Positions 10,989 to 26,803 of a stretch of DNA of 64,000 nt are shown here, piece by piece. The position numbers and the translations under genes are program-made. Each line of letters starts with the position of its first letter. The first letter of the stretch is position 1. Source of the DNA: Streptomyces sp. NBC_01439 (lineage in GTDB: Bacteria; Actinomycetota; Actinomycetes; Streptomycetales; Streptomycetaceae). The notes below the pieces were generated by a model. That model did no database searches. It was not told where the DNA came from and saw only the letters and a list, made by a program, of their open reading frames with translations. Location of the stretch: positions 744,001-808,000 of the forward strand of contig NZ_CP109487.1 of assembly GCF_036227605.1 (NCBI RefSeq), read 5' to 3'.

Positions 10989-11297
10989 CAGGACACCCCG
11001 TAGCGCATTTCCGTCCGGGACGCCAGCGACGGACCGGGGGATGCGGCCGAACCGATCGGAACACGAGCCCGGATTCCCGAGCGGCAAACGGGGCCGACCC
11101 GCCTCCGACCTCCTCTTACGTCACCGCACACCACGCGCGGACCGCTCCCCTTGCCGGAATTCGACGCCACCGATGGCGCATAACGGTTCCTCCGGTCCGA
11201 TGAACTCCAACGAAAGCCCACATCAGCGAAGTTGGGCGTAGTTATGCTCCCGCCCACCGGTCAGAAGGTCCCCCTTTTCGATAGTTCGAGGACGCCG
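10989..11297. other. intergenic region upstream of the conservon
   Basis: About 310 bp without a supported gene. The sequence is less GC-rich near 11160-11290. It should hold the conservon promoter, with TAACGG near 11180 and TAGTTAT near 11239 as possible -10 hexamers, but I see no convincing -35 match or operator. Confidence 0.4.
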
Positions 11298-12830
11298 ATG
11301 GAGCAAAGAGGTACTCCCCCCGAAACTCCCCGCCTGGAGGGAAGAGCAAGCCGGATGCTGCCCGCGATCGCGGTCGTGGCCGCTGCCTGCCTGGCAGGGG
11401 CGCTGGCTTCCTCCTCGGCACCGCTCGGCACCGCCTCGATCGCCGTCGCCGCCGTGTGCACCGCAGCGGTCTTCGTCGAGGCGCGACGGCGCGGCCGCGC
11501 GCTCGCCGCCGGGCGCGCCCAGGTCGCGGCCCTCCAGCACGCCCTGGCCCGGCAGCAGACCGAGGCGGCCCGGCTGTCCGAAGCGGTGCTGCCCGAGGCC
11601 ATAGAGCGACTGCGCAAGGGCGAACCGGCCGAGGACGTGCTGACCGCCCTGGGAGGGCGCGGCGGCCACGGCACCCGCTGGGGCGACGACGAAGCCCTGA
11701 CCCCGCGCTTCAGGGCCGCCCTCCAAGCCGTGCTGTCCCGCGTCGTCGACGCGGTCGACAACGAGGAGAGCCTTCGCGACTCGGCACAGCGGGCCTTCGT
11801 CAACGTCGCCCGCCGCGTGCAGGCGATCGTCCATCAGCAGGCCCACGAGATGCGCGAGATGGAGGACCGGCACGGGAGCAACCCGGACGTCTTCGGCGAC
11901 CTGCTGCGGCTCGACCACGGCACCGCCCTGATCGGCCGGCTCGCCGATTCCATCTCGGTCCTCGGCGGTGCGCGCCCCGGCCGCCAGTGGAGCCGGGCCG
12001 TCACCCTGTACAGCGTGATGCGCGGCGCGATGTCGAGGATCATCGACTATCAGCGGGTGGAACTGCACTCGGTCTGCGAGGTCGCCGTCGTCGGTCCCGT
12101 CGTGGAGCCGCTGATCCACACCCTGGCGGAGCTGCTGGACAACGCCACCCGGTACTCGCCGCCGCACACCCGCGTCCACCTCACGGCCGTCGAGGTCCAG
12201 TCGGGCATCGCCGTGGAGATCGAGGACGGCGGCCTGAGCATGAGCGAGGAGGCCCGCGCCCGGGCGGAGAGGATGCTCGCGCAGGCGCAGTCCGGCATCG
12301 ACCTCAACGACCTGGGCGAGACGCCGAGGCTGGGTCTGGCGGTGGTCGGCCGGCTGGCGCAGGCGTACGGGTTCCAGGTGTCCCTGCGCTCGTCCGCGTA
12401 CGGCGGCGTCCGCGCCGTGGTGATCGTGCCGCAGCACCTGATCACCACGGCGACCTCCGCGACCGGTCTCGCCCACGGCATCGGCTCCTCCTCGGGACCC
12501 AGGGCCGTGGCCGCCACACCGCGCGAGCACCCCTTCGACCGCTCGTCGGAGGGCACGGGCGCGCCCCGGCCGGCGCCGGTGCCCGGGCCGGCGCCCGTCG
12601 CCGCCGGGCAGCCGGAGGTCGGCGCACGTACCGCGACCGGCCTGCCGCAGCGCCGCCGGAAGGACCGGGTGGCCACCTACGACCTACGGCCGGCCGCGGA
12701 GCCCCGGTCGACGGACGACGGCGGCCCCGGAATGTGGCTGGAGGCGTTCCACAGCGGACTGTCCGGCACGCCCGGCAACGATGCGCCGGGCACCGAAGGA
12801 ACGTCGGGTTCAGGGACCAAGGGGGCGTAA
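11298..12830 (+). CDS. conservon membrane ATPase/sensor (CvnA/RarA-type)
   Basis: A 510-residue protein and first gene of a CvnA-B-C-D-P450 operon. Two membrane helices lie near residues 18-55 (MLPAIAVVAAACLAGALASS and GTASIAVAAVCTAAVFVEA), followed by a long helical region and a HATPase_c domain with ELLDNATRYSPPHT and EIEDGG. No phospho-acceptor His box is apparent, as is usual for conservon sensors. The last 110 residues are Pro/Arg-rich and probably disordered. The ATG at 11298 is chosen for its GAGGA site; an ATG at 11244 and a TTG at 11232 are in frame. The family recruits the partner proteins to the membrane in a GPCR-like arrangement and influences development and metabolism. Confidence 0.85.
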   Translation: MEQRGTPPETPRLEGRASRMLPAIAVVAAACLAGALASSSAPLGTASIAVAAVCTAAVFVEARRRGRALAAGRAQVAALQHALARQQTEAARLSEAVLPEAIERLRKGEPAEDVLTALGGRGGHGTRWGDDEALTPRFRAALQAVLSRVVDAVDNEESLRDSAQRAFVNVARRVQAIVHQQAHEMREMEDRHGSNPDVFGDLLRLDHGTALIGRLADSISVLGGARPGRQWSRAVTLYSVMRGAMSRIIDYQRVELHSVCEVAVVGPVVEPLIHTLAELLDNATRYSPPHTRVHLTAVEVQSGIAVEIEDGGLSMSEEARARAERMLAQAQSGIDLNDLGETPRLGLAVVGRLAQAYGFQVSLRSSAYGGVRAVVIVPQHLITTATSATGLAHGIGSSSGPRAVAATPREHPFDRSSEGTGAPRPAPVPGPAPVAAGQPEVGARTATGLPQRRRKDRVATYDLRPAAEPRSTDDGGPGMWLEAFHSGLSGTPGNDAPGTEGTSGSGTKGA

Positions 12831-12832
12831 GC

Positions 12833-13243
12833 ATGATGACTCAACGAATCAGCAGCATGGACTGGATGCTCAAGGACCTGGCGGCCGGAGTGCCGCAGAC
12901 GCGGCACGTGATCGTGCTGTCCGCGGACGGGCTCTGCGTGGCGCAGCACGGGGCCGAGACCGACACGGCCGACCGCCTGGCAGCGGCCTGCGCGGGCCTG
13001 CAGAGCCTGGCCGGAGCGGTGGCCGCGGAACTGCCCCGTTCGGAGGGCAGGATGCGCCTGGTCGTGATCGAGATGGACGGCGGCTTCTTCTACTTGATGG
13101 CCGCCGGCGACGGCTCCTACCTCGCGGTCCTCGCCGACGAGGGCGTGGACGCGGGCCTGATGGGCGCGCAGATGCGCAACCTGGTGACCCGAATGGGGGA
13201 CCACCTGAGCAGCCCGCCCCGGCGCGACGGGCAGCCCGAGTGA
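12833..13243 (+). CDS. roadblock/LC7-domain protein (CvnB/RarB-type)
   Basis: A 136-residue roadblock/LC7 protein: MDWMLKDLAAGVPQTRHVIV, then LSADGLCVAQHG, then MRLVVIEMDGGFFYLMAAG. This fold dimerises and regulates small GTPases of the MglA type. In conservons it works with the DUF742 protein and the GTPase. Two adjacent ATG codons (12833 and 12836) could start it; the first is used. It lies 2 bp after the sensor stop and overlaps the next gene by 4 bp (GTGA), so it is tightly coupled. Confidence 0.9.
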   Translation: MMTQRISSMDWMLKDLAAGVPQTRHVIVLSADGLCVAQHGAETDTADRLAAACAGLQSLAGAVAAELPRSEGRMRLVVIEMDGGFFYLMAAGDGSYLAVLADEGVDAGLMGAQMRNLVTRMGDHLSSPPRRDGQPE

Positions 13244-13599
13244 ATGAGCCGCCCACGAGCTGGGAGGACGCCAGCCCCGAACGGCTCTACGTCATCACCG
13301 GTGGACGCAGTGGACCCTCCACCGCCGTCCATCTGGACCTCGTGACCTTGGTCGTGGCCAAAGGGTCCGCCCAGCCCGAAATGCAGCCCGAGCAGGCGGC
13401 CATCCTGCGGATGTGCCGGTCCCCGCTGTCGGTTGCCGAGATCGCGGCGTACGCGGGTCTGCCCGTGAGCGTCGTCACCGTGCTGGTCGGGGACCTGATG
13501 GCCGCAAGGCGCGTGTACGTCCGCCCGCCCGTTCCCGCCGCGCAGCTACCCGACCTTGCTCTGATCGAGGCAGTGATCGATGGACTTCAAAAGCTCTGA
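13240..13599 (+). CDS. DUF742 protein (CvnC/RarC-type)
   Basis: A 119-residue DUF742 protein starting at GTG 13240, which overlaps the roadblock stop as GTGA. The fold is a winged helix: RLYVITGGRSGP, then EQAAILRMCRSPLSVAEIAA, then YAGLPVSVVTVLVGDLMAAR. In the family this protein bridges the sensor, roadblock and GTPase components and may have lost or kept DNA binding. The C-terminus PDLALIEAVIDGLQKL overlaps the GTPase gene by 20 bp, so the two share a transcript and probably a translational link. Confidence 0.9.
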   Translation: MNEPPTSWEDASPERLYVITGGRSGPSTAVHLDLVTLVVAKGSAQPEMQPEQAAILRMCRSPLSVAEIAAYAGLPVSVVTVLVGDLMAARRVYVRPPVPAAQLPDLALIEAVIDGLQKL

Positions 13600-14200
13600 C
13601 CCGCCCGCCGGGCCGCGCGAGGCGGACATACTTCCACAGACGGCAGCGGCCGCCGTGAAGGTCGTCGTCGTCGGCGGGTTCGGCGTGGGCAAGACCACGA
13701 TGGTCGGTGCGGTCAGCGAGATCAGGCCGCTGACGACCGAGGAGACGATGACCAGGGCGGGCGTCGGCATCGACGACACCTGGGGCGTGGACCGCAAGGT
13801 CACCACCACCGTCGCCATGGACTTCGGCCGCATCAGCATCAACGACGAGCTCGTCCTGTACCTGTTCGGAACTCCCGGCCAGGAACGCTTCTGGTTCCTG
13901 TGGCGCGGGCTCTTCGAGGGCGCGCTCGGAGCGGTCGTGCTCCTCGACACCCGTCGCCTGGAGATCAGCTTCGACGTCATCGGACGGCTGGAGGAGCGGG
14001 GCGTCCCCTTCGTCGTGGCCGTCAACTCCTTCCCCGGCGCACCCGAGCATCCGCTGGAGGAACTGCGCCGGGCCCTCGATCTGCCCCCCGCGGTCCCGAT
14101 CCTCGTCTGCGACGCCAGACGGCGGGACTCGTCCCGCGATGTCCTGCTGACCCTCATGCGCTACCTGCACGCCCAGGCAGCCACCCAGGAGGCAATGTGA
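13580..14200 (+). CDS. conservon GTPase (CvnD/RarD-type)
   Basis: A 206-residue GTPase of the MglA-like/GTP-binding group. Walker A is GGFGVGKTT at about residues 32-40. A switch Thr-rich region (KVTTTVAMDFG) and a G3-like FGTPGQERFW follow, and the G4-type specificity region lies around VAVNSFPG. It starts inside the DUF742 gene (20-bp overlap) and ends four bases into the P450 start. In characterised conservons this protein binds GTP and interacts with the other components at the membrane. Confidence 0.92.
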   Translation: MDFKSSDPPAGPREADILPQTAAAAVKVVVVGGFGVGKTTMVGAVSEIRPLTTEETMTRAGVGIDDTWGVDRKVTTTVAMDFGRISINDELVLYLFGTPGQERFWFLWRGLFEGALGAVVLLDTRRLEISFDVIGRLEERGVPFVVAVNSFPGAPEHPLEELRRALDLPPAVPILVCDARRRDSSRDVLLTLMRYLHAQAATQEAM

Positions 14201-15677: not shown

Positions 15678-16841
15678 TCAGTCGTGCAGCCGTTGCCACC
15701 AGGAAGCGAGGGCCGGCACATCCGGCGGCTCGGTGCCGGCAGAGCTCGGGGATTCGGCGAACCGGATCGCGAACCGGGCTTCCGGCAGGGGTAGTTCGTA
15801 GCGGTTGCGCGGGCTCGCGTACCGGGGTGCCCGGCTCTGCCAGGTGATGGAGCCGGCCACGTAGTGACCCAACGCCGCCAGGTGTCGGCGCAGTTCCTCG
15901 TCCGCACCGACCTCCGCCCGCGCCCGCAGCGTCATGAACAGGACCATCACCCGGTCACGCAGGGCCACCGCGAGCGGCACGGCCCCGGCGGGCGAGCAGT
16001 TCTCCTGATGGGCGAGGACATTGACCAGATTCACCTCCTTCGGCTCCACGTGGTCGTCCTTGTCGTAGGAGAACAGGTCGTTGTCCGCGCTGACGACGAA
16101 TCCCGCCGCATCCGTCAGTGCCGTCAGAGCACGGGAGCAGAGCACCTCCGCCGGCAGCCGGTCCCCGCGGGCGACGTCGGACCAGGTCAGCGAGAAGCGC
16201 GTCCCGTTCGCCAGCGGCCCCATGGCGACGAACTCGTTCAGCCCCGGCATGGTCCCGGCCTCGGCCCGGGCGGCCCGCCAGGCCGCTCCGAGCAGCCAGT
16301 CGCGCGTCCCCTCGACGAACCTGCGCAGCTCGTAGGGCGTGAGCACCGCATGGGTGCGGCGCACCAGGTCCAGCAGCGCACGGGTCATCGGTCCGTCGGG
16401 CAGGACCGATGACCCCGGGTCCTCGATGGTGCGCAGCAGACGTACGCCGTGTTCGACGACAACACCCGTCCCCACCTCGTCGGAACCCGAGTCCTGCCAG
16501 TCGTCGACGGCGTTGGCCCAGTAGTTCCATTGGGTGAACAGGAGGAGGGCGTCCACGTTCCCGTCGGGGATGATGCGGCAGGAGAAGTCGGCGCTGTGGG
16601 TGGCGAGGCCCCATGCGCGCTCGACCGGATCCGGGTAGATGCCGAAGGCGTCCAGCCACTCGACCGCCCGTGCCTCCACCTGCTTCGCCTCGGGATGGAC
16701 GAGGTTGCGCTCCAGGGGACAGTAGAAGGACGGCAGGCGCGCACCGAGGAGCGAGGGGCGGGGCGCCGGTGGCGGTGCGGGTGCCGCGGACGGGGAGGGG
16801 GACGGAGACGGGGACGGGGATGGTGCCGGGGACGCCGTCAT
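15678..16841 (-). CDS. class I terpene synthase with Pro/Ser-rich N-terminus
   Basis: A 387-residue terpene cyclase. Residues 1-30 are a disordered Pro-Ser-Ala leader encoded by short repeats. The first metal motif is NAVDDWQD (Asp113, Asp114, Asp117), inside the usual [11 protein letters not shown] helix. The second is NDLFSYDKD (Asn254, Ser258, Asp262), an NSE triad with Asp in place of the final Glu. It starts at ATG 16841, overlapping the methyltransferase stop as ATGA. A methyltransferase-cyclase pair is the hallmark of methylated terpenoids such as 2-methylisoborneol, but the sequence differs clearly from the 2-MIB synthase I remember and the protein is shorter. The product is unknown, and a C10/C11 or C15/C16 substrate cannot be distinguished. 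Confidence 0.8.
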
Positions 16842-17755
16842 CGGCCGCTCCCGAGCCGGAAGCGCAGCAGCCGCGTCTGCACCGCGTGGTCCCGCCAGAG
16901 CCGGAAGAACCTGCTGTGCGCGAGCGTCGACTGTTCGAGCCGTTCGCCGGTCCAGGCGCCGGGCTCGGCGTCGGCGCCCGCGCGGAGCCGGTCGAGTTCG
17001 GCGGTGTTCCACGCCATGGACTGCACCCAGAACTCCGCCACCAAGTCCGTCACGTCCTCCTCGTGCACGAGTTCAAACCCGGCCGCCTCGGCCGCGGTGA
17101 GGTATTCCCCTCTCAGTCCCAGTCGCGTTCTGTAGTAGCCGTCGATGAACTCGCGCCATGTGGAACGGCCCACGAAGTGTTCCTGGATCCCGAACCATCC
17201 TCCGGGCTCCAGCGCCTTGGCCACGACCTCGAAGAGTCGGGTCCGATCGGTGTAGCCGCTGCTCTCGTTGGCGTAGACGGCGTCGTACGCGCAGGTCTCG
17301 TCGAGGTCGTGCACATCCGCCAGTACGGGCTTCACCCGCTCCCCGACCCCGGCGTGCCGTGCGAAGTGCCGGACGATCGGGATGTGTTCCGCTACGACGG
17401 TGAGGCCGGTGACCGATGCTCCGTGCTCCTGCGCCCAGTACAGCGACGTCCCGCCCAGGCCGCAGCCGATGTCCAGCAGGCGCCGCGGAGACTCCTCGTA
17501 CGCGCCCCACGACCGGGCCGCATGCTGCACGATCCGCTCCTGCGCATCGAACAGGCGCTGCTTCAACACGCTCTGGGGGACGGTGCTGTCCGGCGGACCG
17601 TCCGGGTAGAGGCCCACGTGGAAGTGGACGCGGGGACCCGGACCGTACTTGTGCAGGATCTCTTGCGTCTTGTGACTGTAGTAGAACCGTATGGGATCGT
17701 CCGCGGCCGTGCCCTGTTCGCGACCCAAGGACGATAAGAGGGGGGTGACGTGCAT
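16838..17755 (-). CDS. SAM-dependent methyltransferase, candidate prenyl-diphosphate C-methyltransferase
   Basis: A 305-residue class I methyltransferase. Motif I is [18 protein letters not shown] at about 92-109, followed by [10 protein letters not shown] and [14 protein letters not shown]; the last resembles the NNES-type segment of geranyl diphosphate C-methyltransferases. It is the first gene of a two-gene operon with the terpene synthase (ATGA overlap), so the likely job is to methylate the prenyl substrate before cyclisation. Methylation of the cyclised product is the alternative. The N-terminal region ([19 protein letters not shown]) is not that of the known 2-MIB enzyme. The start at 17755 is used; the frame extends upstream without a good ribosome site. 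Confidence 0.78.
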
Positions 17756-18175: not shown

Positions 18176-19267
18176 GTGATCGAGTCTGGACGGCCGCGGC
18201 TACGCAGGCGCCCCGGCCCGGGACGACTTGTGCGGCTGTCGCCGGTCATCCTGACCGTCGTCATCGCCAGCCTGGCGTACAACACTCCGCCGGAAATGGC
18301 CTTCAGCCGTCTCCTGCCCGCGGCGCCGGCCCTCGCCGCCGCCATGTGGCCGGTATTGCCGACCGTCCTGCTCGGGACGGTCTGTCTCATCCTGATGATC
18401 GGCCTCAGCTTCGTCTTCCCGGACCTGGGGACGTGGTGGACGGCCGCGGGGATCATCGCGGTCACCGTCGCCGCCGCGTACGGGAGCCATGTCCGGCTCC
18501 AGCGGGAGCGCACCCTCTTCCAGGTACGGCTCGTCGCCGACGCGGCACAGCAAGTGGTGCTCAGCCCCCTGCCGCGCCGCTTCGGCGGCATCGAGATCGA
18601 GTCGCTGTACCTCGCGGCGGCGGCCGAGGCACGCATCGGCGGGGACTTCTACGAGGTGGTCGACACTCCGTTCGGGGTCAGGCTGCTCATCGGTGACGTC
18701 CGGGGCAAGGGCCTGCCGGCGGTGGGAGCGGCCGCGGCGATCGTGAACGCCTTCCGGGAGGCCGCGTACGGCGAGATCGACATGGTCAACGTCGCACGCC
18801 GCATGGACGCCAGCAGCACCCGTTACAACGGCGCGTTTCCGCCCGAGGGGCCGTTGGAGCGCTTCGCCACCGCCCTCCTCGTCCAGATCCCGCACGGGGG
18901 TAGACGCATCGACATCCTCAACTGCGGACACCCCCCGCCGCTGCTCCTGAACCAGGGGAAGGTCCTCACCCTCGAGTCCACCACCCCCTCCCCCTTGCTC
19001 AGCCTCGCGGAGCTGATCGGCGACCACTACAGCGTCGACACCTTCGACTTCGCCCCCGATGACCTGCTGCTCCTCTATACCGACGGGATCGCCGAGGCCC
19101 GCGCCCGCGACGGCGAGTTCTTCCCGCTGGCGGCCTGGATGCGCAGGCAGCCCCCGACACCACCCGACGAACTGCTCACGGCCCTTCACCGCGATCTCCT
19201 CCGCCACAGCAAGGGCCGCCTCGACGATGACATCGCCGCCCTCGCCGTGCGCCTGTGCGAGCCTTGA
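18176..19267 (+). CDS. membrane PP2C/SpoIIE-type serine phosphatase
   Basis: A 363-residue protein. Two to three membrane helices occupy residues 18-105 (SPVILTVVIASLAYN, LAAAMWPVLPTVLLG, WWTAAGIIAVTVAAAY). The cytoplasmic SpoIIE domain follows with metal-site motifs RIGGDFYEV, LIGDVRGKGLPAVG, LNCGHPPPLLL, LLLYTDGIAEARARDGEF and DDDIAALAVRL. The family dephosphorylates anti-anti-sigma factors or acts in phosphate signalling. The GTG at 18176 is used; the GTG at 18174 runs straight into a stop. No Shine-Dalgarno is visible, so a leaderless message is likely. No partner switch genes are nearby. Confidence 0.88.
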   Translation: MIESGRPRLRRRPGPGRLVRLSPVILTVVIASLAYNTPPEMAFSRLLPAAPALAAAMWPVLPTVLLGTVCLILMIGLSFVFPDLGTWWTAAGIIAVTVAAAYGSHVRLQRERTLFQVRLVADAAQQVVLSPLPRRFGGIEIESLYLAAAAEARIGGDFYEVVDTPFGVRLLIGDVRGKGLPAVGAAAAIVNAFREAAYGEIDMVNVARRMDASSTRYNGAFPPEGPLERFATALLVQIPHGGRRIDILNCGHPPPLLLNQGKVLTLESTTPSPLLSLAELIGDHYSVDTFDFAPDDLLLLYTDGIAEARARDGEFFPLAAWMRRQPPTPPDELLTALHRDLLRHSKGRLDDDIAALAVRLCEP

Positions 19268-20491: not shown

Positions 20492-22243
20492 TCAGTCCTC
20501 CGGAGCCGCAGCGGGCCGGGGGGCGATGCTTCCCGTGAGCTCCTGGTACGCGTCCATCACATCCCCCAGGTGCAGCGTGGTGACCTCGTCCGGCGACGGA
20601 ACTCCGGAGTGGCCGATCCGGTCGAAGACGCGCAGGTCCCTCGCCGCGGCGGCCTTCCGCACGAGTTCGCGTGCGAAGCGGCCGTTGCCGAGGCGGTCGA
20701 TCAGGTCTCGGGTGACGGCCAGGTCGCATGACACGCGCAGCGCGTTCGCGGCCTCCTCGGTGAGTGAATCGCCCTGGGCTTCGAGGAACGACTCCGCGAT
20801 CAGCACCAGGTCGTCGGCCGCGTAGGCAGGGAAGTCCACCCGGGTGTTGAAGCGGGAAGCGAGGCCCGGATTGGTGGACAGGAGCTCTGCGATCTCGTCC
20901 GGGTACCCGGCCAGAACCACGACCAGGCGGTGCCTGTCGTCCTCGGCACGCTTGAGCAGTACCTGTAGGGCCTCCTTCCCGAAGGCGTCACCGCCCGAGT
21001 AGCCGGTGTTGGACAGCGCGTACGCCTCGTCGATGAAGAGCACTCCGTCGAGCGCCCGGTCGATGGCCTGGGACGTCTTGATCGCCGTCTCGCCCAGGTG
21101 CTGTCCCACGAGGTCCACGCGCTGCACCTCGACGACGTGGCCCCGCTCCAGCAGGCCGAGTCCGGCGAAGACGCTGCCGACGATGCGGGCGACGGTGGTC
21201 TTGCCCGTGCCGGGCGGTCCGGCGAACACCAGGTGTTGCGGAGCAGGCGCCGCGGTCAGGCCCTGGCTCCTGCGCACTGCCGCCATTCGCAGCTGGGCCG
21301 ACAGGCTCCGCACCTGGCGCTTCACCGGGGCCAGGCCGACCATTCCGTCCAACTCGGCCATCGCCTCGTCCAGCAACCTCGAACGCTCCTCGTCGCTCAA
21401 GGTGCCGCCGGAGGAGTTCCCGCGCTGTTCCCGCACGGTCGGGGCGGCCTGGGCCGGTACGGGTGCAGGTACGGGTGCGGGTGCGGTCGGCGGGGTCAAC
21501 GCCTGGGCACGCTGGGCCACGTCGCCCAGGCCGGGGCTGTATCGGAACGCAGTCTGGAAGTGCTTCAGCGCTTCCTCGGCACGGTCGAGCTCCTCGTAGG
21601 CACGGCCACGCAGATAGGCGACTTCGCCGAGGAAGCCGGCGTTGTCGCCGAGCGCTTGCGGGAGCGGTCTCAGGACGTTGAGCGCCTCGTGGGAAACGCC
21701 CTGGGCGATGAGGCCGGCCGCGACGTAGAGCTGTGACTCGTCCCTCAGGAAGGAGTTCCGAATCCCTTCGGCGAAGGTGAGCAGAAGTGGCCAGTCCCTC
21801 TTCAGGAAGGCGTACCGTGCGCAAACGAACCGGGTCTCGTCGCAGTCGAGCACGGCATGGGAAAGCATGTTCCACGCCTGCTCGAGCAGGCCGTCGTCCA
21901 GGAGTTTCGCCGCCCGCGCGAGCCACAGGTCACGGTCCGTCTCCAGGCGGAAGTTCACGTAGCCCCCGATCTGGAACCGGGAGGACAAGGGGGTCTGGAG
22001 CTTCCTCCGCAGGGCACCGAAGTCCTGGGCCTGACCGTACATGGCCTCGACCGCCCGGTCCTGGAGCTGCCCGACGGCATGGAACCCTAGCCAGGCATCG
22101 GCCGCGAGCGGATTGTGCTCGAGGGCCGAGCGGAAGGACTCGGCAGCGGCGGCCGGATTGCCCGACCTCAGCTGCACGACGCCTTGGAGCCATGCCTGTT
22201 CGCACTTCTTGATCGAACGCCATGATACTGACGGCCCCTGCAC
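20492..22243 (-). CDS. CbxX/EccA-like AAA+ ATPase with N-terminal TPR-like domain
   Basis: A 583-residue protein. Residues 10-260 form TPR-like helical hairpins (AWLQGVVQLRSGNPAAAAES, then RGRAYEELDRAEEALKHFQT). An Ala/Pro linker leads to a CbxX/CfqX AAA+ domain with Walker A GPPGTGKTT, Walker B GVLFIDEAYAL, sensor 1 LAGYPDEIA and an Arg-finger segment NPGLASRFN. The layout is that of EccA, the cytosolic ATPase of type VII secretion, but no other ESX genes are in the window. The GTG at 22243 is chosen for the AGGGGAG site before it; a TTG at 22276 is an alternative. A secretion role is only suggested. Confidence 0.85.
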   Translation of the reverse strand: MQGPSVSWRSIKKCEQAWLQGVVQLRSGNPAAAAESFRSALEHNPLAADAWLGFHAVGQLQDRAVEAMYGQAQDFGALRRKLQTPLSSRFQIGGYVNFRLETDRDLWLARAAKLLDDGLLEQAWNMLSHAVLDCDETRFVCARYAFLKRDWPLLLTFAEGIRNSFLRDESQLYVAAGLIAQGVSHEALNVLRPLPQALGDNAGFLGEVAYLRGRAYEELDRAEEALKHFQTAFRYSPGLGDVAQRAQALTPPTAPAPVPAPVPAQAAPTVREQRGNSSGGTLSDEERSRLLDEAMAELDGMVGLAPVKRQVRSLSAQLRMAAVRRSQGLTAAPAPQHLVFAGPPGTGKTTVARIVGSVFAGLGLLERGHVVEVQRVDLVGQHLGETAIKTSQAIDRALDGVLFIDEAYALSNTGYSGGDAFGKEALQVLLKRAEDDRHRLVVVLAGYPDEIAELLSTNPGLASRFNTRVDFPAYAADDLVLIAESFLEAQGDSLTEEAANALRVSCDLAVTRDLIDRLGNGRFARELVRKAAAARDLRVFDRIGHSGVPSPDEVTTLHLGDVMDAYQELTGSIAPRPAAAPED

Positions 22244-22819
22244 CGAGATCTCCCCTGCTGTCGTCCGGCAATCCAAGATCTACTTCCCGCGGAATGCGTG
22301 AGCTGATCCCCCGCCAAGTAATACCTGAGAGCTGCCGTTCGACAAGGAACGAGCCCTGCGCGTCCACGTCTACGGACGGATCGACGGGCGCCCGCGCGCA
22401 GGCCTCGTCCCGTGACGTCGAGGTCGGCGTTCTCGGCGGTCGGCCGGGGTCCGTCTTCCGTCCCTCGTAGGATCGTTGGCGCTCGCCGGCCCTCGCCTCA
22501 CGCCCTGTGCAAGAACACCGCCGCTTTCCACCACTACCTCGCGGACGGTCGGGGCACGGTGACGGCGATCCGAACCTTGGAGACGGCCCCTGTCCAGCGG
22601 ACCCTCGAAGCGGTGGCACCGATCGCGTCCGGGCCGCCGTCATACCGCCACGGGTGACAGCGCCGAGCGCACCGGAAGTGCCGGGGCCGGAAGTGCCGGA
22701 GCGCTGAGGCGGTGGAGAGCTGAGCGTCCGCTCGGAACGGTCGTGGGCGCGGCATGCGTTTTCGCGTGCCGCGCCCACAACCGTATCGGGGTCCGGAGGC
22801 GCGGGGCCTCACCGGACTC
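22244..22819. other. intergenic region between AAA+ ATPase and P450 genes
   Basis: About 575 bp with no frame I can support. It contains the P450 terminator at 22743-22778 and a short direct repeat, CCGGAAGTGCCGG, twice near 22674-22700. The ATPase promoter should lie at 22260-22340. Short open frames here show no recognisable family or ribosome site. Confidence 0.4.
22743..22778 (-). terminator. hairpin after the first P450 gene
   Basis: A 12-bp perfect stem (22743-22754 with 22767-22778) around a loop containing TTTT, 41 bp beyond the P450 stop. Confidence 0.7.
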
Positions 22820-25888: not shown

Positions 25889-26803
25889 TCAGGGCAGCAG
25901 GACGGCCTTGCCGCGGTTGCGGTGGGCTTCCAGGTCGGCGTGCGCCGTCGCGGCCTCTTCGAGCGGGTAGGTCCGCCAGACGGGCAGGGTGAGCGTGCCG
26001 TCGGCGGCGAGCTCGACCAGTTGCGGCAGGGCTTCTTCGGCCTGGTCGGCGCTGCCGGCTCGGCCGGCGCTGAAGCGGACGCCGTGCTGCGCGGCGGACA
26101 TGTCGGCGATGGTGATGACGTGTGCGGCGTCGCCGGTCAGGGCGACGGAGTCGGCGAGGACGCCGGCACCGGAGGCATCGAGGACGAAGTCGACCCCCTG
26201 GGGCGCTGCGGTCCTCACCCGCTGCAGCCAGCCGTCGCCGTAGCGGACGGCGACGGCTCCGAGGGCGGTGACCCGCTCGATGTCGTGCTCGCCGACCGTT
26301 GCGATGACGGTGGTGCCGCGGGTGACGGCCAGCTGCGCCGCGATGATGCCGACGCTGCCGCCGGCACCGTGGACGAGCAGGGTCTGCCCCTCGCGCACTC
26401 CCAGCTCGGCAAGGACACGGAACGCGGTCCGGCCGACGGTCACCAGCGACGCTGCGACCTCCCAGGACAGCGCTGCGGGCTTGGCGACCGGCCGTTCCAA
26501 CAGCGCGTACTCGCTGTAGCTGCCGCCCGCGGTGGCGCCGAGGACCTCGTCACCCACGGCCACAGCGGCCCCCTCGCCGAGCGCGTCGACGACACCGGAT
26601 GCGTCCAGTCCGGGAACGACGGGGAAGCGCGCCGGGACGGCCCCGGCCATCAGGCCGGAGCGGATCTTCATGTCGAGAGGGTTCACGGAGGCGGCCCGCA
26701 CTCGGATCCGGACCTGGCCCGGGCCCGGCTCCGGCGGGGTGACCTCCGACAGGCGCAGCACCTCGGGCGTGCCGTACTCGGAGAAGGCGATCGCTTTGGA
26801 CAT
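25889..26803 (-). CDS. NADP-dependent quinone oxidoreductase-like (MDR family)
   Basis: A 304-residue zinc-free medium-chain dehydrogenase/reductase: KAIAFSEYGTPEVLRLSEV, then RAASVNPLDMKIRSG, then FPVVPGLDASGVV, then the nucleotide-binding VHGAGGSVGIIAAQLA. The latter GAGGSVG motif and absence of zinc cysteines place it with quinone oxidoreductases. It lies 40 bp downstream of the Old Yellow Enzyme gene on the same strand, so both are probably co-transcribed under the MarR operator upstream and act in detoxification of electrophiles such as quinones or enones. Confidence 0.9.
   Translation of the reverse strand: MSKAIAFSEYGTPEVLRLSEVTPPEPGPGQVRIRVRAASVNPLDMKIRSGLMAGAVPARFPVVPGLDASGVVDALGEGAAVAVGDEVLGATAGGSYSEYALLERPVAKPAALSWEVAASLVTVGRTAFRVLAELGVREGQTLLVHGAGGSVGIIAAQLAVTRGTTVIATVGEHDIERVTALGAVAVRYGDGWLQRVRTAAPQGVDFVLDASGAGVLADSVALTGDAAHVITIADMSAAQHGVRFSAGRAGSADQAEEALPQLVELAADGTLTLPVWRTYPLEEAATAHADLEAHRNRGKAVLLP

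Follow-up and report, generated by a model that had tools for sequence, protein, structure and literature searches.

The genome of Streptomyces sp. NBC_01439 carries a methyltransferase gene and a class I terpene cyclase gene that very probably make a C16 homosesquiterpene from FPP via prekantenol pyrophosphate, and the two stand tail-to-tail with a conservon that we lean towards regarding as acting on, or responding to, this pair. The genes lie within the window analysed here, 64,000 nucleotides (positions 744001-808000) in a single-contig genome of 9.58 Mb (Table 1). Both are on the minus strand and open up to their stops, and the ATGA at 16838-16841 contains both the cyclase start (ATG) and the methyltransferase stop (TGA), an overlap described with correct coordinates in an initial annotation of this DNA; the genes are probably translationally coupled. 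That annotation also proposed a pathway to a methylated, non-canonical terpenoid unlike that to 2-methylisoborneol (2-MIB), which sequence comparison supports, and it missed both the membership of the pair in a described family and the conservon and P450 that lie tail-to-tail with it. C16 pathways of this kind are already published and the window pair is an addition to that family, which was reportedly first described by Reuter et al. in 2024. With the pairs of S. varsoviensis and S. morookaense taken as the characterised references, identities over the best tblastn segment are 64% and 62% for the methyltransferase and 45% and 52% for the cyclase, all under the 70% proposed in the initial annotation as the mark of a known pair. 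Among named strains, Streptomyces sp. NBC_01214 is the closest in the trees.

Table 1. Features of the gene pair, its surroundings and compared loci (window positions unless a locus or contig is named)
Feature	Position	Strand	Remarks
cvnA, histidine-kinase-like	11244..12830	+	HATPase_c 2.7e-09, sole Pfam match
cvnB, Roadblock/LC7 protein	12836..13243	+	PF03259 1.3e-22
cvnC, DUF742 protein	13240..13599	+	PF05331 6.1e-35
cvnD, small GTPase-like	13580..14200	+	PF03029 1.4e-30
cvnE, CYP157-type cytochrome P450	14197..15618	+	PF00067 2.7e-09
Class I terpene cyclase, SvaTC type	15678..16841	-	387 aa; start overlaps methyltransferase stop
6-bp tandem repeat, 7.8 copies	16788..16834	-	Tandem Repeats Finder; codes much of the Pro-Ser leader
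SAM-dependent methyltransferase, predicted C6-FPP (SvaMT) family	16838..17755	-	305 aa; first gene of the pair
SpoIIE-type gene	18176-19267		Upstream of the pair
AAA ATPase	20495-22276	-	TPR matches, EccA1-type N-terminal domain (type VII secretion-like)
Second cytochrome P450	24322-25743	+	~6.6 kb from methyltransferase start
Zinc-type alcohol dehydrogenase	25892-26803	-	~8.1 kb from methyltransferase start
2-MIB genes	G000:C1 ~670900-674770 (L163:4897-8772)		GPPMT, cargo cyclase, family 2B encapsulin shell; ~671-675 kb, ~85 kb from the window pair
Methyltransferase with unrelated terpene synthase	L089:2498-8156		Same stretch as L025
Conservon with different terpene synthase	L094:3617-10898		Streptomyces sp. 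NBRC 110611
CYP157-type P450 with terpene synthase	L148:3568-6267		Head-to-head

The methyltransferase matches SAM methyltransferase families in Pfam (best 1e-11). Among solved structures it is closest to the S. varsoviensis C6-FPP methyltransferase 9TB4 (phmmer 2.8e-117), with which the S. varsoviensis protein of our collection (L067) is the same by eye. The C6-GPP enzyme BezA comes second among solved structures (9.9e-57) and the C2-GPP methyltransferase of the 2-MIB pathway is remote (1.3e-07). Ten of the 11 active-site residues named in PMC12929941, which identifies the residues that hold FPP and do catalysis and assigns the FPP tail to His194 and Tyr209, are identical in the window enzyme; the sole change, Met47 to Val, is shared by 32 of 60 family rows. 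The equivalents of the catalytic Glu165 and of His194, Tyr209, Phe243 and Trp244 are kept, giving a catalytic Glu and an aromatic FPP pocket, and Tyr37, Glu165, His194, Tyr209, Thr211, Phe243 and Trp244 are invariant across the 60 rows. A branch with 100/100 support in the methyltransferase tree separates these 60 pair rows, along with the more distant L089, from all others. With 9TB4 its closest solved relative and in the same clade, the window protein is a predicted member of the C6-FPP methyltransferase (SvaMT) family. L089 itself combines a methyltransferase of 48% identity and mostly FPP-type residues with an adjoining unrelated terpene synthase and a 29% identical P450 on the same strand, and shows no cvn match. 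Relatives outside the Streptomycetaceae were seen in Nocardia wallacei (L085), with a 36% identical cyclase and no cvn match, and in the myxobacterium Minicystis rosea (L092), where no cyclase of SvaTC type was seen.

The cyclase belongs to Terpene_syn_C_2 (PF19086, 3.7e-29) and has the class I metal motifs DDWQD and NDLFSYDKD, both noted in the initial annotation, together with a C-terminal RY pair in WQSRAPRY. Asp at the Glu position of the NSE motif, read earlier as a sign of a distinct product, is a weak one: it occurs in 27 of 59 family rows (one of the 59 has a gap), and because of this frequency we dropped it as a product marker. A predicted model (mean pLDDT 87.2, from a 25-sequence alignment) is almost wholly helical apart from a low-confidence leader. 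Selinadiene synthase is its best fold match; the top solved folds also include the diterpene synthase CyS, a sesterterpene synthase from Kitasatospora and reconstructed SVS_A2 enzymes, and over the first 25 fold matches listed the query-based TM-scores are 0.74-0.83. The gene adjoins an SvaMT-type methyltransferase and its product is kin to the cyclases of S. varsoviensis (45-46% identity) and S. morookaense (52-53%), which identifies it as SvaTC type; at these identities, however, the skeleton cannot be named. A tree of 57 rows, from which L058 (start motif not found), L049 and L078 were dropped, places the window cyclase in its own group of 17 rows with support of 100/100. S. avidinii, S. 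virginiae and their relatives carry this subclade, and no characterised member was found among its 17 rows.

By homology to the solved enzyme, the methyltransferase would move the SAM methyl group to C6 of FPP, and the equivalent of Glu165 would then take a proton to leave the C16 diphosphate prekantenol pyrophosphate. The cyclase, as its family suggests, would ionise this substrate to form a C16 terpenoid whose skeleton is probably eudesmane or germacrane, and by analogy with SmoTC it could also take FPP. Methylation of GPP at C6 in the manner of BezA, with cyclisation to a C11 terpene, is highly unlikely and was rejected: BezA is the second-best solved relative, but the methyltransferase is far closer to the FPP enzyme 9TB4, and its equivalents of His194, Tyr209 and Phe45 are FPP-type, unlike those of the 15 rows L095-L109, which depart at 45, 194, 205 and 209 and have Val or Leu at 194 and Phe at 209. 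These rows are called BezA-like from their distance, and not from any benzastatin genes.

A GPP pathway like that to 2-MIB, with the cyclase packed into an encapsulin through its leader, is more improbable still. It would share with the window genes the pairing of a methyltransferase with a cyclase, the genome does encode a family 2B encapsulin, and the 30-residue Pro-Ser leader is Pro-rich and predicted to be disordered (mean pLDDT 49, 53 and 68 for residues 1-10, 11-20 and 21-30). The 2-MIB genes proper, however, lie elsewhere in the same genome and score 480.2 (GPPMT), 490.3 (cargo cyclase) and 768.4 bits (2B shell) against cut-offs of 400, whereas the window pair reaches 53.1 and 95.3 bits with the first two models, so far under their cut-offs of 400 that we rejected a 2-MIB-type pair. 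Encapsulated cyclases are reported to carry a GPTGLGT-like cargo motif (PMC8346489). The 2-MIB synthase of this genome has the close variant GPSGLGT in its N-terminus, and a search of the window cyclase found no such motif. Nor was a shell gene found among the neighbours read, which on one side are the conservon and P450 and on the other the SpoIIE-type protein, in agreement with the initial annotation, which had seen no encapsulin gene beside the pair. Counted in codons from the methyltransferase stop to the residue preceding a conserved PxFxxP stretch, the leader is long (33-42) in five of the 17 subclade members (the window, L032, L033, L037 and L086) and short (12-16) in the other 12. The proposal in the initial annotation that the leader acts as a cargo tag is thus unsupported, since the motif is absent, the leader reflects expansion of a 6-bp DNA repeat and it is short in most of the subclade; we rejected it. 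The preferred reading remains the C16 route from FPP.

Downstream of the pair, cvnA to cvnD follow one another in order and are succeeded by a P450 gene, the arrangement of a conservon (an actinobacterial G-protein operon), with 59 bp between the ends of cvnE and of the cyclase gene. In CvnA a short loop separates two hydrophobic stretches, and neither Pfam nor the hydrophobicity profile revealed an extracytoplasmic sensor domain. In this it is like the kinases accompanied by CvnE or CvnF in PMC13343842, which are described as being without sensor domains and for whose partners a sensory or modulating role is suggested. CvnD matches Ras at 3.1e-4 (20.8 bits, under the 21.6 cut-off). CvnE has EQVLW instead of ExxR and keeps the heme Cys (FGSGPHECPGQ); a K-helix without the Arg of ExxR (EQSLW, EVLW and EQILW types) is described for CYP157 in PMC3599690. 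We call CvnE CYP157-type on this motif and its adjoining conservon, and not on identity to named CYP157s. In all 53 P450s read, EQVLW, EQTLW or EQILW replaces ExxR and the heme Cys is kept. On the other side of the pair, the SpoIIE-type gene recurs only in L006/L033 (one genome) and L032 within the flanks read (1.5 or 6 kb), and because of this limited recurrence we left it out of the unit. An AAA ATPase, a second cytochrome P450 and an alcohol dehydrogenase were seen further upstream (Table 1).

The pair is present in 20 of 392 Streptomyces genomes, as 21 pairs with one genome holding two; 21 of 27 methyltransferase places adjoin a relative of the window cyclase and the other six are without a cyclase of SvaTC type. 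A collection of 79 named loci, the best of 90 candidates encoding a relative, holds the pair in 59. A conservon with a CYP157-type P450 lies tail-to-tail with the pair in 53 of the 56 readable named pair loci: all five genes are found in 50 of the 59, and three (L061, L075 and L077) show four of the five before the record ends. The record stops less than 1 kb past the cyclase in three more (L058, L071 and L082), and in L072, L078 and L085 no conservon was found in the 4.6-4.9 kb read. These counts leave out L094, whose cyclase and methyltransferase are of other types. Between the P450 and cyclase matches the gap has a median of 110 bp (18-1447; 54 loci, including L094). In genome G089 (L144) the conservon lies 3.4 kb from the pair in the opposite orientation. 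The unit is kept down to 53% methyltransferase identity and occurs also in Kitasatospora and Streptantibioticus. S. goshikiensis has two units of conservon, P450, cyclase and methyltransferase (L045 and L051) from different subclades, and for all seven genes the closest relative falls in the locus group of the same copy, though the third-ranked methyltransferase match of L045 (L050) lies outside it; both pairs of genome G054 have the P450. Across 50 loci, the pairwise distances calculated for the seven genes show correlations of 0.64-0.92, values partly inflated by shared species history.

P450s of the CvnE sort are common, with a match at 1e-60 in all 40 genomes searched. In 20 genomes without the pair, seven of 27 P450s at least 45% identical to CvnE have a terpene synthase within 8 kb and 20 have none, against none of 32 less similar P450s with one. 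For six of the 27 the synthase is no more than 3 kb away, and all six adjoin cvn genes, although L160, whose record begins ~290 bp before the frame holding cvnB, shows no cvnA match; the G018 region (L162) was not counted, as other genes separate its conservon from the synthase. A rough chance rate of 0.36%, from estimated inputs (73 synthase loci out of 93 domain places, and 172 Mb, the genome sizes summing to ~176.6 Mb), gives a binomial probability of ~6e-10 for six of 27 with related genomes treated as independent. A tail-to-tail arrangement is seen in four of the six (L149, L150, L159 and L160); L154 and L161 have their synthase on the same strand, ~1.5-1.7 kb away when measured from open frame to open frame. 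The six P450s represent three lineages in the P450 tree and their synthases four sorts (L149/L150 83% alike, L159/L160 82%, L154/L161 only 25%); the synthases of L159 and L160 score above the 7-epi-alpha-eudesmol synthase cut-off. No terpene synthase was found in the ~11 kb around similar conservons in L142, L143, L146, L147, L151, L153, L155, L157 and L158. Mapped on the P450 tree, 'pair' as a label takes 6 changes as against 18.6 in shuffles, so the pair P450s are clustered and not a single group, in a sample biased in that its regions were mostly chosen from P450 matches and several for a nearby synthase.

Single loci add variants of this arrangement. In L094 a different terpene synthase and a 41% identical methyltransferase (Val194, Trp209) lie beside a conservon with a P450 that groups with those of the pair, a possible cassette exchange, perhaps with a different substrate. 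Sister conservon P450s in L152, L154 and L161 lie near terpene synthases only 25-27% identical to one another, as if synthases had been swapped beside one conservon lineage. In L148 a CYP157-type P450 (60%) without cvn matches stands head-to-head with a terpene synthase for which the selinadiene synthase model is the nearest, though below its cut-off, and the same genome has the pair elsewhere.

From the synteny and from published conservons, cvnABCD and CvnE would control the pair or respond to its product, which we judge somewhat probable; conservon synteny is no proof of regulation. According to PMC8510531 and PMC13343842, a lanthipeptide cluster is repressed by the adjacent cvn8 system, and PMC3617294 describes a conservon found with indole prenyltransferase gene clusters, for which its authors suggest a signalling link. 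None of the literature matches listed, Reuter et al. 2024 lying outside that search, reports a link between conservons and terpenes. A slow change of gene order could also leave the conservon as a mere neighbour of the pair, functionally unlinked to it, with the pair as described, a reading we consider doubtful though serious. Such P450s are common, gene order is inherited and the same shared history inflates the seven-gene correlations; three pair loci are without a conservon and most of the related P450s have no synthase nearby. Against mere neighbourhood stand the retention of the unit at 53% methyltransferase identity and in other genera, the conservon at both S. goshikiensis copies and the P450 at both G054 copies, and the frequency of related P450s close to other synthases, which is well above the rough chance rate, though the cases come from about three conservon lineages. 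Tailoring of terpenes by P450s is common, and CvnE might simply be an oxidase acting on the C16 product, in keeping with the heme Cys kept in all the P450s read; this is possible and rather unlikely, given that the Arg of ExxR is missing in all 53 P450s, that the gene is in a row with cvnABCD on the strand opposite to the pair and that a sensory or modulating role is suggested for CvnE/CvnF beside sensor-less kinases (PMC13343842). More tentatively, CvnE may bind or modify the terpenoid of the neighbouring synthase and report to CvnA, conservons with a CYP157-type CvnE being a recurrent terpenoid control module; we hold this to be rather unlikely.

With the window pair, a young class of C16 terpenes gains a subclade whose product may be unlike those known. 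More weight attaches to the link with the conservon, as PMC13343842 leaves open what P450-bearing conservons sense: with a candidate small molecule made next door, the question of what a conservon senses becomes testable, and the link could help to switch on silent terpene genes. If CvnE is indeed a sensor, a bacterial G-protein system would be reading the C16 terpenoid as a signal.

Among known systems the window pair is expected, by analogy, to make a C16 compound like jaegerol, epi-weberol, marxdiol or kantenol. Cyclases of this branch convert prekantenol pyrophosphate to the first three (PMC12929941), and kantenol is given as the product of the SvaMT/SvaTC route in PMC12723460 and is taken here to be the S. 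varsoviensis product. The S. varsoviensis system resembles the window in its methyltransferase (64% over residues 25-301, with the active-site residues noted above), its nearby cyclase gene and its tail-to-tail conservon and P450 (L067), and differs in its cyclase, the window enzyme belonging to a separate subclade. The S. morookaense pair (L068) shares the gene layout and conservon (methyltransferase 62%, cyclase 52-53%), but its cyclase SmoTC, which converts prekantenol pyrophosphate to jaegerol and FPP to germacrene A (PMC12929941), is in another subclade. BezA, as treated in PMC12929941, has a related fold and equivalents of the catalytic Glu and Trp244, but is remoter by sequence, with different tail-pocket residues in the rows taken as BezA-like. 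The 2-MIB operon (GPPMT, MIBS and family 2B encapsulin) likewise joins a methyltransferase to a class I cyclase, with methylation preceding the scaffold, but unlike the window pair it has a GPP substrate, a longer N-terminus with the cargo motif and a shell gene. Like the window conservon, that of the indole prenyltransferase clusters (PMC3617294) stands, sometimes with a P450, beside a small pathway, although one with other enzymes and another product.
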